Assembly: GCF_029889805.1 (NCBI RefSeq)
Contig: NZ_JARANT010000003.1
Span: 1 to 55,178, forward strand
Reading direction: 5' to 3'
DNA length: 55,178 nt
DNA from: Halorubrum sp. Boch-26
Lineage (GTDB): Archaea > Halobacteriota > Halobacteria > Halobacteriales > Haloferacaceae
Of the stretch, positions 1 through 2,866 are shown piece by piece. The notes beneath the pieces were generated by a model, which searched no databases, was not told the origin of the DNA, and was given only the letters and a program-made list of their open reading frames with translations. A program made the position numbers and the translations under genes. Each line of letters begins with the position of its first letter. Within the stretch, counting starts at the first letter, position 1.

Positions 1-65
1 TCAATCGTCTCGTCGATCTCCTCTTCGGTGAGATGTTTGACGAGCTCCTTCGACGGTCCAGGCAT
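1..65 (-). CDS. Partial helix-turn-helix/IS-type protein, N-terminal 21 residues only
   Basis: Reading leftward from an ATG at 65, the frame stays open to the window edge and gives MPGPSKELVKHLTEEEIDET before it is cut. This start resembles the N-termini of haloarchaeal helix-turn-helix proteins that form the DNA-binding part of IS630-like transposases; that assignment is from memory of the family and rests on few residues. A TATA-like element lies 17-25 bases upstream (82-90), which fits a leaderless transcript. The remainder of the gene is outside the window, so neither domain content nor integrity can be judged. Confidence 0.45.
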   Translation of the reverse strand, partial: MPGPSKELVKHLTEEEIDETI

Positions 66-81
66 ACTTCATACTCTCGCT

Positions 82-90
82 CAAATATTA
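82..90 (-). promoter_or_regulatory. TATA-like element for the left-edge gene
   Basis: On the minus strand this AT-rich stretch reads TAATATTTG, in otherwise GC-rich DNA, ending 17 bases upstream of the ATG at 65. The position fits a haloarchaeal TATA box for a leaderless mRNA. Confidence 0.4.
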
Positions 91-120
91 CAAAGTTTTC
101 GACGGTCACTATCGGCGACC

Positions 121-345
121 GCGAGGAGCCCGCGAGGGAGTCAGTCGTCCGGAGCGAAGCGGAGGACGACTGACGAGGCTGGGGAGGTGTGAGGTGCGGT
201 TGCGGTGCTGTGCGGGTGGGACTCAAAGGGGCAGCCGCGAGGCGGTCACAGGCGACGCAAGCACTAGAAGGAGCGAGCAACGCGAGCGACTGAAGCGCGC
301 AGCGAGCGTGTGACCGCCTCGCGGCTGGGGCTTTGCAGGCATTCA
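121..345. repeat. Non-coding structured repeat, copy A
   Basis: This copy shares a scaffold with the element at 2638-2866: GCGAGG(G)AGCCCGCG, then a hairpin, then GAGGCTGGGGAGG.GTGAGG (175-194), then GGGACTCAAAGGGGC (about 218-232), then a second arm closed by GGCTGGGG.TTTG. The sequence between scaffold blocks differs between copies but still folds. Hairpin 1 here pairs 140-150 with 164-174 (11 perfect pairs). Hairpin 2 pairs 232-250 with 309-327 (19 perfect pairs) around a roughly 58-base loop. No convincing gene overlaps it. It could be a structured RNA, a non-autonomous palindromic mobile element or a chromosomal interspersed repeat. The rest of the gene-free stretch (346-439) holds only the palindrome at 417-432. 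Confidence 0.7.
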
Positions 346-416
346 CCGCCGTTCTGCCACCAGCAGCTGCATATAATTGAGCGGCTGGGGATGTAGAAGT
401 GGACACCGCGGCAGTA

Positions 417-432
417 ATCGATTATAATCGAT
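417..432. promoter_or_regulatory. Perfect 16-base palindrome just past a stop codon
   Basis: ATCGATTATAATCGAT is an exact palindrome lying 8 bases beyond the stop codon of the leftward gene at 440-1369. It is AT-rich in GC-rich surroundings. It could help end transcription or bind a dimeric protein; nothing in the sequence decides between them. Confidence 0.35.
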
Positions 433-439
433 CGCCAAT

Positions 440-1369
440 TCATTCCACGACCGCGAGCGCGACGCCTTCCACGTCTCGCACCCCGACCACCTGGTGTCGC
501 CAGCCGTCGCCGGCGTCGACGCAGAGCGTGCCGGCCGCGGTGACGGCCACGGAGATCCCGGGGCCGTAGCCGAGCGCGACGGTCTCCTCGTCGACCGGGA
601 GGTCGGCCGGTCGCCACGTCTCGTCGTCCCACGCGTCGGTTCCACTCGCAGACGCGTCGGCCGCGTGAACGAGGAGCTCGCCCTCGACGACCGTCATCGC
701 GTGGCCGTCGCCGTCGGCCGCGACCGCCTCGGCCACCCCTTCCAGCGCCGTCATCCAGCCGTTGCCGAGCCAGTAGAGCCCGGAGGCGGTCGCCGCGAGG
801 GGCATCCCCGCGCCGGCGATGTCGCGCGCGTCGTCGAGGCCGACCGCGGTGAGCGCGCGGGCCGCACTCGCGTCGGTCGCGGCGGCGCCGTCGCCTTCGG
901 CGACCCGATACACCCCGTCCGCGGCCGCGACGAGGGGGCCGTCTATCGCGCGCGGCTCCGACACGGACCCTACTCGCGTCGTCTCCGGGTCGGATCCCAC
1001 GTCATCGACCGCGATCCGATCGATCCCGCCCTCCTCTCCGGCGACGAGGAACGCGTCGTCGTGGACGCCCACGGCGACGACGGAGTCGGACGTGACACGG
1101 TCAAAGTCGAGTTCATCGCCGCCGACGCGGCCGACGCGTAGGCCCTCGACGGTCGCGAATCCGACGAGGTCAGCCCCCCGGTCGCGGGGGAGCACCGCGA
1201 CGTCGCGGGCCGACTCGCGGGCGACCATGTCGAACGCGCCGACCTTGTCGGCCGACAGCGCCACCCGGACGACGCCGCTCCCGGTGGCGACGTACGCGTC
1301 GGTGCGACCCGCCGTCCCGGCGTACACGCGCTTCTCCTCGATCGAGATGTCGTCCTCCGCGGGTGCCAT
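440..1369 (-). CDS. Beta-propeller-like protein, resembles the HVO_0234 family
   Basis: This 309-residue acidic protein has no signal peptide or membrane segment. It is built from short beta-strand modules of the type VV.VAL, DGVYRV, SGLYWLGNGW and GTLCVDAGDGW, alternating with small or acidic turns, as in WD/PQQ-like propeller blades. It starts around IEEKRVYAG and ends around EGVALAVVE, which resembles the haloarchaeal HVO_0234 family of predicted beta-propellers of unknown function. No catalytic motif is visible. It is transcribed away from the Gate-domain gene at 1530, with 160 bases between the two starts. Three long overlapping frames on both strands are shadows of this GC-rich gene. 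Confidence 0.65.
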   Translation of the reverse strand: MAPAEDDISIEEKRVYAGTAGRTDAYVATGSGVVRVALSADKVGAFDMVARESARDVAVLPRDRGADLVGFATVEGLRVGRVGGDELDFDRVTSDSVVAVGVHDDAFLVAGEEGGIDRIAVDDVGSDPETTRVGSVSEPRAIDGPLVAAADGVYRVAEGDGAAATDASAARALTAVGLDDARDIAGAGMPLAATASGLYWLGNGWMTALEGVAEAVAADGDGHAMTVVEGELLVHAADASASGTDAWDDETWRPADLPVDEETVALGYGPGISVAVTAAGTLCVDAGDGWRHQVVGVRDVEGVALAVVE

Positions 1370-1529
1370 CGGCCGGGGATTCGAGCGGGGGTCCCATAAG
1401 CCCCGCGCGCCGGGGGCGGGGGAGCCGAGCGGGCGGCGCTACGCAGGTCGCGGGCGCGGGCGCCCCGTGACCCGGCCACTGCACGCCGGTTTCGACGCGC
1501 ATTAGGTCGGCGACCGCGTACCGCCGGCC

Positions 1530-2513
1530 GTGCAACCGGTCGCCGCCGAGGTCGTCGCCCTGCTCGCCGAGGTCGCCCCGCGGCTCGCGCGGATCGCGGC
1601 GTTCATCGCGATCGGCGTCTTCGCCGCCAACGTCGCGGTCGCGTTCGGGCTGATCCGGTACGTCGCCGGGCTGGCCGGGTGGCTCACCCGGCCCGCGAAC
1701 CTCCCCGACGAGGTCGGCACCGCGATCCTCACGACCGCCGCGTCGACGACCGCGGGCTACGCCACGCTCGCCGAGTACCGCGAGTCGGGCCTGCTCGACG
1801 ACCGGGCGACGCTCGTCGCCGTGACCATCAACACGTTCTTCGGCTTCGTCCAGCACGTGTTCACCTACTACGTCCCGGTGATGATCCCGATTCTGGGTGC
1901 CCGGACGGGGACCGTCTACGTCTCCGCGCGGGCCGGGATCGCCCTCGCGATCACCGTCACGGGGGTCCTCGCGGGCGGCGCCCTCCTCACCGAGCGCAAC
2001 GTGGACCGCTCCGCCCTCGCCGATGTCGACGCGAGCGGTCCCGAGGCCGACGATCGGACGAGCCGCGAGCGCGTCCGAGAGGCGGGAGCCAAGTCGTGGT
2101 CCACCCTCCGCCGTATCGTCCCCCGGCTCGCGGTCGTATACACGCTCGTGATCGCGCTCGTCACCAACTACGACGTCGAGGCGCTGACGAGCGTCGCGGA
2201 GCCGATCACCGGGATCCTCGGGCTCCCCGGCGCCGCGGTCCCAGTGATCGCCGTCTACACCCTCGACACGACGGCCGGGGCCGTGACGCTCGCTGGCGCC
2301 GAGGCCGGCGTGTTCACCACCCGGACCGCGGTCGCGAGTCTGCTCATCGGCGGTATCCTCTCGTTCGCCGTCTCCACCTTCCGGCGCTCGATCCCCTTCC
2401 AGTACGGGATCTGGGGCGCCGAGTTCGGCACGAAGGTGATCGCCGTCAACACCGCCCTGAAGCTGGTCTTCATTTCGGCGACCGTCGCGCTGCTCCTCGT
2501 GCCGGTGTGGTGA
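1530..2513 (+). CDS. Nucleoside-recognition (Gate) domain membrane protein
   Basis: This 327-residue integral membrane protein starts at a GTG. About eight hydrophobic segments fall in two halves, each resembling the nucleoside recognition/Gate domain of SpmA/SpmB-type and concentrative nucleoside transporter proteins. The first half carries GTAILTTAASTTAGYATLAE then INTFFGFVQHVFTYYVPVM; the second carries GLPGAAVPVIAVYTLDTTAG and FRRSIPFQYGIWGAEFGTKV. A charged cytoplasmic loop (about residues 155-200) separates them. The family is thought to handle nucleosides or nucleotides or to act as a membrane gate; the substrate here is unknown. The first hydrophobic stretch begins near residue 20, which supports the GTG start. 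Confidence 0.75.
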   Translation: MQPVAAEVVALLAEVAPRLARIAAFIAIGVFAANVAVAFGLIRYVAGLAGWLTRPANLPDEVGTAILTTAASTTAGYATLAEYRESGLLDDRATLVAVTINTFFGFVQHVFTYYVPVMIPILGARTGTVYVSARAGIALAITVTGVLAGGALLTERNVDRSALADVDASGPEADDRTSRERVREAGAKSWSTLRRIVPRLAVVYTLVIALVTNYDVEALTSVAEPITGILGLPGAAVPVIAVYTLDTTAGAVTLAGAEAGVFTTRTAVASLLIGGILSFAVSTFRRSIPFQYGIWGAEFGTKVIAVNTALKLVFISATVALLLVPVW

Positions 2514-2637
2514 GAGGCGGCGGGTGGAATGATACGGATATCACTACGACGGGCGGCCGCGGCCCTCGGACACACTTCATGAGACGACATGCGGTCGGCG
2601 CGCGCCTCTGAGCGCCCATCGGGCGCGAAGAGCGCGT

Positions 2638-2866
2638 GCGAGGGAGCCCGCGGCGGCGTTTATAACGCCGCCGCGGCGAGGCTGGGGAGGCGTGAGGCTG
2701 CGGTGTCGGTGCGGTCTCGCGAGTGAGACGAGCGGGAGCACGGAAGCCGCAGCCCGCGCGGCGAACGGAGTGAGCGAGCAGGACCGTCTTCCGATGATCG
2801 TGGCGGGACTCAAAGGGGCCGTCCTCCCGGCTGGGGTTTTGAAGTGGGTTACCGCCCATCTGCAGG
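2638..2866. repeat. Non-coding structured repeat, copy B
   Basis: This is the second copy of the scaffold seen at 121-345. GCGAGGGAGCCCGCG leads into hairpin 1 (2648-2660 pairs with 2664-2676, 13 pairs, TAT-like loop), then GAGGCTGGGGAGGCGTGAGG (about 2679-2697), a longer central region with its own CTGCGG...CCGCAG pairing, GGGACTCAAAGGGGC at about 2805-2819, and GGCTGGGGTTTTG at 2829-2841, followed by the matching ACCGCC..TCTGC. Hairpin 1 has a wholly different sequence from copy A yet occupies the same place. Hairpin 2 is short or missing. A small GCGCCC-ATC-GGGCGC stem precedes it at 2612-2626. The whole 423-base gap before katG is non-coding as far as can be seen. Confidence 0.7.

Follow-up and report, generated by a model that had tools for sequence, protein, structure and literature searches.

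The 55,178-nucleotide stretch of Halorubrum sp. Boch-26 that we analyzed (contig NZ_JARANT010000003.1, here called the window) contains two copies of a repeat, copy A at 121-345 and copy B at 2638-2866, and both belong to a dispersed non-coding family. We think it probable (roughly 55%) that they belong to a haloarchaea-wide family of mobile foldback elements, non-autonomous and non-coding, whose structure is kept as folded single-stranded DNA; we lean towards single-stranded DNA over RNA as the folded form, which is unproven. On the + strand, the element folds into a hairpin (P0), a second hairpin (P1), a G-rich linker, and a foldback of about 121 nt (P2). Its parts follow in the order P0 hairpin, GAGGGA, P1 hairpin, GAGGCTGGGGAGG.GTGAGG, linker, GGG[TC]GGGACT[C]AAAGGGGC, P2 foldback, CTGGGGCTTTGGAGG, and tail. 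The initial annotation had offered two readings of the copies, as structured RNA or as elements under selection for palindromes. The structure is upheld, as it covaries and does so on one strand, but RNA is not established, and the family shows mobile-DNA behavior and GNA tip loops.

The P2 fold is maintained by compensatory change across most of the Halobacteria

We first describe the family by exact words. In the draft Halorubrum genome that the window comes from (G000; G-numbers denote genomes and L-numbers denote loci), the scaffold word GACTCAAAGGGGC was counted 44 times, and its reversed control does not occur. The exact word GGGACTCAAAGGGGC is present in 49 of 53 Halorubrum genomes, with up to 145 copies each, and every reversed control gave zero. 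In six Halorubrum genomes (G015, G033, G040, G041, G046, and G047), the variant CTCGAAGGGGC predominates, with 70 copies versus 4 of GGGACTCAAAGGGGC in G015 and 95 versus 4 in G046. In these six, CTCAAAG has become CTCGAAG throughout the genome, with the matching change of CTTTG to CTTCG, which shows that dozens of scattered copies have evolved in concert.

As an exact sequence, GGGACTCAAAGGGGC is almost missing from other genera. The genus-restricted distribution that this suggests is wrong, because a structure-based search with a covariance model of P2 (R1) finds relatives across the class. (E-values from R1 are approximate, and the matched sequences were checked by eye.) R1 matched 133 of the 171 genomes of the taxonomic family, from 21 of 28 genera, and 293 of 394 Halobacteria genomes, from 71 of 86 genera. 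In a sample of the phylum, 42 of 52 haloarchaea matched, as did none of about 242 non-haloarchaeal genomes. Outside Halorubrum, the copy number reaches 82 in uncapped counts (in G111) and the P2 consensus is GGGTGGGACTGAAAGGGGC ... GGGGGCTTTCG. The CAAAG/CTTTG pairing of Halorubrum is replaced by GAAAG/CTTTC or GGAAG/CTTCC in other genera, so pairing is maintained between genera too. We rejected a spread on plasmids or phages: a search of plasmids gave just three partial matches, and a search of phages for the element gave none; the exact 15-mer matches 15 viral contigs, as a word match alone.

Among 52 full-length copies, 27 of the 51 predicted pairs showed double-sided compensatory changes. 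Within P2, 97.3% of cells were paired, versus 84.9% in shuffles, and 212 were changed on both sides, versus 65 in shuffles; these counts are of non-independent events, as the copies are related through descent and conversion. When partner columns were slid by 1 to 3 positions, at most 23 double-sided P2 changes remained. Where CTC[A/G]AAG faces CTT[T/C]G, we counted 155 A-TTT, 20 G-TTC, 12 G-TTT, and 2 A-TTC combinations, and another P2 pair was C-G in 87 cases, T-A in 50, T-G in 37, and C-A in 2. Similarly, the combinations CACC/GAGGAGCGC, GACC/GAGGACCGC, and CACT/GAAGCGCGC are almost never mixed. Across all scored pairs, there were 97 G.U and 20 A.C. Thus, the P2 fold is maintained by compensatory change across most of the Halobacteria. 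The initial annotation had named a lack of further copies and of covariation as grounds for dropping its claim; instead, there are hundreds of copies and the covariation is strong.

The fold also includes noncanonical features. Four tandem G.A steps are present in 43 to 52 of the 52 sequences, and the pairs that adjoin them covary; all 52 have a symmetric GGG/GGG internal loop. The opposite strand would have C.T and C.C mismatches in place of the G.A steps and the GGG/GGG loop, and R1 scored copy A at 132 bits on the + strand versus 23 bits on the - strand at the identical position. This strand specificity sets the P2 structure apart from a mere DNA palindrome. Just before ACT, 214 of 229 copies have GGG-N(1-3)-GGG, compared to 34 of 581 control sites. 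These upstream tracts and the two in the internal loop would make up a four-tract quadruplex motif.

The tips of P2 bear on whether the folded molecule is DNA or RNA. Hairpins of the d(GCGAAGC) type with GNA loops are exceptionally stable as DNA, while RNA favors GNRA or UUCG loops. Of 120 P2 tips, 98 are triloops, among them 70 with the sequence GNA, and just 4 of 22 tetraloops are GNRA. This prevalence of GNA triloops, with few GNRA loops, is why we lean towards folded single-stranded DNA.

Alternatively, the element might encode a haloarchaeal non-coding RNA with a defined structure, or be its template; P2 would be the functional core, and riding on mobile elements would have multiplied the element, as with HEARO or omega RNAs. 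The covariation is of RNA quality, it is strand specific with G.U in excess of A.C, and P2 is conserved through most of the class; sheared tandem G.A pairs, moreover, are stable in RNA too. In 53 of 143 copies, a TTATAA box precedes the core at a preferred distance of 14 to 16 nt. However, a TATA box at -16 would place the start of the transcript inside P0, and P2 ends in GNA triloops or in tetraloops other than GNRA. For an RNA gene, divergent hairpins and as many as 145 copies would be unusual, and no Rfam family matches. The genomic context, as judged with our own codon-usage gene caller, also argues against this explanation, since there is no sense bias relative to adjoining genes: among co-directional copies, 30 are sense and 40 are antisense. 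More broadly, 185 copies are intergenic and 3 lie inside predicted genes, and 82 of the 185 are between convergent genes, compared to 61 of 299 background spacers. The intergenic placement and the lack of sense bias fit tolerated insertions and argue against a role in sense 3' untranslated regions, and we rejected such a function. Overall, we consider an RNA gene to be possible but doubtful.

Exchange of hairpins and mobility

Although the scaffold is constant, the hairpins are not. At the same intergenic sites in syntenic regions of G022, G049, and G015 (92% and 88% identical), the P0, P1, and P2 hairpins are unrelated. At the site of copy B, between a permease gene and katG, P1 is entirely different in G000, G031, and G019, but it is paired in each. 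Conversely, G007 has four copies with near-identical P2 and differing P0 and P1, and one of the four has a different tail. Across copies, the arms of P1 pair at eight of eight positions in 50% of cases within a copy, versus 6% when arms are mixed between copies. Additional hairpin modules of about 50 to 85 bp, with constant joints, are nested in P1, P2, or the linker. The simplest reading of these comparisons is that hairpins are exchanged by recombination through the common scaffold.

The nested modules deserve a separate mention. At L383, L047, L052, L060, and L103, we saw at least five further modules of about 50 to 85 bp inside the element, mostly twin hairpins. They have constant joints and variable stems, and both orientations are found for at least one of them. 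The modules may themselves be small mobile elements.

Second, the element behaves like mobile DNA, with copies gained or lost between species. The site of copy B is empty in G009, G016, G021, and G039, where the permease-katG spacer is 52 to 72 bp and contains no element. In three genomes from other genera, P2 is flanked by inverted repeats of about 13 bp and by 8-bp target duplications: G111 and G123 contain P2 in inverted doublets about 356 bp across, and G140 contains it in single copies. The duplications are GGTGCGTG (L361), CAACGATC (L369), GCCAACGG (L308), GGCGGACC (L381), and CTGTGAAC (L380). Pairs of STGTTYAGWTWAG bound these P2 elements (about 356 bp) and also, 676 bp apart, an IS6 element in the same three genomes. 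The gene between the 676-bp ends encodes an IS6-family transposase (NF033587, E = 7.5e-56; Pfam DDE_Tnp_IS240), and the IS6 element has an 8-bp duplication of its own, CTAGTACC (L375). Thus, the P2-bearing copies of G111, G123, and G140 are miniature inverted-repeat transposable elements (MITEs) of the IS6 family. Such insertion sequences of the IS6 family, about 690 bp long, lie at L375, L376, and L377, in three haloarchaeal genera, and have ends in common with the P2-bearing MITEs.

In Halorubrum, TTATAA-rich flanks adjoin the copies. Clean empty sites with duplications were not obtained there; the flanks of sites are rearranged in genomes that are 88 to 92% identical.

If the family is a plain repeat of the MITE type or of the repetitive extragenic palindromic (REP) type, then palindromic ends and gene conversion would give rise to the hairpins as a neutral side effect, with no selected structure. 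This explanation is consistent with the MITE-like chassis in genera other than Halorubrum, with an intergenic placement that looks neutral, and with the concerted, species-wide switch from CTCAAAG to CTCGAAG. It does not account for compensatory change on one strand only, with G.U tolerated and A.C avoided, or for invariant tandem G.A pairs (mismatches, in a DNA palindrome), or for a P2 fold that is maintained in 71 genera. We therefore consider it improbable.

A REP-like or IS200/IS605-type element that a Y1 (HUH) transposase moves in single-stranded form would explain the strand-specific hairpins, the resemblance of the inverted doublets of several genera to REP doublets forming hairpins (REPINs), and the nested hairpins, which recall the insertions of SMR-A elements into palindrome-associated transposable elements (PMC3119063), but it is very improbable: Y1_Tnp (PF01797) is absent from the nearly complete, copy-rich genomes G001 (79 copies), G015 (74 copies), and G019 (78 copies), which largely refutes it for Halorubrum, and the doublets are bounded by IS6 (DDE) ends with target duplications. 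Given the absence of Y1_Tnp, we rejected a partner of the RAYT (REP-associated tyrosine transposase) or IS200 type.

Returning to mobile foldback elements that are kept as folded single-stranded DNA, we suggest that the elements are spread by transposases supplied in trans. These would be of the IS6 family in the genera of G111, G123, and G140; the Halorubrum copies would also depend on a trans-acting transposase, which we do not assign to IS6. Through the common scaffold, hairpins would be reassorted by recombination or gene conversion, and the structure would persist because of a role of the + strand as folded single-stranded DNA. Judging from their sequence, the GGG-N-GGG tracts and the GGG/GGG loop probably form a G-quadruplex in the KCl-rich cytoplasm, and the folded + strand with its quadruplex may help the element to persist or move.

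Several observations weigh against this explanation. Covariation with abundant G.U pairs is equally expected of a functional RNA; the pair counts overstate the number of events because the copies are not independent; and the G-quadruplex is predicted from nucleotide letters only. IS6-type ends were not seen in the Halorubrum flanks that we inspected, which is why we do not class the window copies as IS6 MITEs. Nor did the Halorubrum copies show a clean target duplication or a precise boundary, and empty sites there differ from occupied ones by more than the presence of the element. No autonomous long version was found among the loci examined. Transposition as single-stranded DNA might leave a replichore-like strand bias, and no such bias was seen (runs tests, P = 0.15 and 0.41); there was one run of 12 in G001 (P = 0.014).

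A broader formulation is that P2 is a previously unrecognized, class-wide nucleic-acid module of the Halobacteria: a hairpin with four tandem G.A steps on a G-quadruplex base, working as either RNA or single-stranded DNA to the benefit of the element or the host. Different mobile chassis, with hairpin cassettes that can be swapped, would carry it between loci. We put this tentatively, at somewhat short of even odds.

Relation to known elements

The family is apparently undescribed. When we compared the window to Rfam at the gathering threshold, we found tRNA only and nothing on the element, and seven element loci had no match on the element down to E = 0.1. A search of the open literature by sequence string and by topic, whose coverage leaves out most subscription journals, found no description of the repeat. 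We see the family as a form of the dispersed foldback or MITE elements, with the class-wide covarying P2 as the surprising part.

Haloarchaeal IS6 MITEs share the terminal inverted repeats of about 13 bp and the 8-bp duplications with the P2 elements of G111, G123, and G140. However, the filler of the P2 elements is a strand-specific foldback that is conserved across the class, and the Halorubrum copies do not have IS6 ends. As for the hairpin elements of mitochondria, we know of no class-wide covarying fold like P2 among them, with tandem G.A pairs and G-tracts. Mitochondrial double-hairpin elements, repetitive hairpin-forming elements, and GC clusters are likewise short mobile hairpins with variable stems, but they are from other genomes and differ in size (PMC2800124, PMC4478555).

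The nearest described haloarchaeal analogue is SMR-A of Haloquadratum walsbyi (HqIRS42/43/55), which we compared by description only: it is about 110 bp, is present in many copies, has no transposase gene, and inserts into hairpins of other elements, but unlike the P2 elements of the IS6 type, it produces no target duplication (PMC3119063). R1 found no match in H. walsbyi C23 (G151; best E = 5.35). REPs, bacterial interspersed mosaic elements (BIMEs), and REPINs with their RAYT transposases are also high-copy intergenic hairpins with mosaic arrays and inverted doublets (PMC3116915, PMC2817692). The P2 family differs in being independent of a Y1 transposase, in being several-fold longer, and in having fixed scaffold joints with variable stems. 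HEARO and other large structured RNAs on mobile elements, as well as the STAXI motif, also combine a covarying structure with dispersal by mobile DNA, and for STAXI it is likewise an open question whether RNA or single-stranded DNA is involved (PMC2864571). In contrast, the P2 family has no Rfam match and no associated protein was found.

Here, then, compensatory change has preserved a strand-specific fold in most genera of an archaeal class, with about 145 copies per genome at most. The family provides a natural library of hundreds of covarying hairpins, a test case for whether dispersed repeats function as RNA or as folded DNA where the cytoplasm holds multimolar KCl, and a possible physiological G-quadruplex. 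It also offers an explanation for fragmented haloarchaeal assemblies and for fast-changing intergenic DNA.

The two copies in the window

The shared blocks of copies A and B lie where the initial annotation placed them. The 20-base block GAGGCTGGGGAGGNGTGAGG, with up to three mismatches, occurs in the 55-kb window only at 175-194 and 2678-2697, with 0.02 occurrences expected by chance, and GACTCAAAGGGGC is found at 220-232 in copy A and 2807-2819 in copy B. Folding reproduced the hairpins claimed for both copies: 11 pairs (140-150/164-174) and 13 pairs (2648-2660/2664-2676) in the first hairpin of copies A and B, respectively, and 19 pairs (232-250/308-326) in the second hairpin of copy A. Copy A folds better than its shuffles do, with z = -5.4 as RNA and z = -4.5 as DNA. 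The element extends beyond the two annotated intervals, with the additional hairpin P0 upstream and tails with repeated CTGGGGCTTTGG units downstream. All features below are on the + strand, except for the spacer, which has none.

Copy A retains just the 3' strand of P0 (GGCGACCGCGAGGAGCCCGCGAGGGA, 113-139), and the 5' strand is lost, as judged from the full copies in alignment A1. P1 (140-174, by folding) has an 11-bp stem and the loop GGAGCGAAGCGGA. It is followed by the G-rich scaffold GAGGCTGGGGAGG.GTGAGG ... GGGTGGG, which includes G-tracts 1 and 2 (175-220, by scaffold match), and by the P2 module (218-338, located by its R1 score on the + strand). Within P2, the helix CAAAG/CTTTG (224-228/331-335) leads to the GGG/GGG internal loop and the 19-bp stem, beyond which the distal stem has the tandem G.A pairs. 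The 3' tail (331-410) includes a second, degenerate CTGGGG tail unit. In other elements (L022, L029, and those of G049 and G015), the tails carry tandem units of about 57 bp, TTTATAA-n-GCGGCTGGGGCTTTGGAGGTGTTCACCG, that replicate the 3' strand of P2 minus its hairpin; the first unit appears to be interrupted by the inserted core.

Copy B lies in the convergent permease-katG spacer (2514-2936). Its P0 is complete, from about 2591 (GGCGCGCGCCTCTGAGCGCCC..GGGCGCGAAGAGCGCGTGCGAGGGA, 2591-2645, by folding and by comparison with orthologues). P1 (2648-2676, by folding) has a 13-bp stem and the loop TAT, and the scaffold GCGAGGCTGGGGAGGCGTGAGG and the start of the linker occupy 2677-2711. An additional hairpin module of about 85 nt (epsilon) is inserted at about 2712-2796. 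P2 has been cut down to a 40-nt stump with its hairpin deleted (GGGACTCAAAGGGGCC..GGCTGGGGTTTTG, 2805-2844; R1 score of 24.4 bits, versus 132 bits for copy A), which is why copy B does not have a second hairpin. In the orthologue of copy B in G052, P2 is full-length and the epsilon insert is absent.

Finally, the repeat often lies near contig ends. Many contigs of the draft (C8, C17, C36, C45, C60, and C101, which is the window) start or stop no more than a few hundred bases from the repeat, which therefore probably interrupts short-read assemblies. The first 111 bases of C101 and C68 are identical (window 1-111 and L015 1-111), and the two contigs then pass through differing versions of the repeat into different genes. 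This fork is either a strain-level rearrangement at a repeat or a branch in the assembly.

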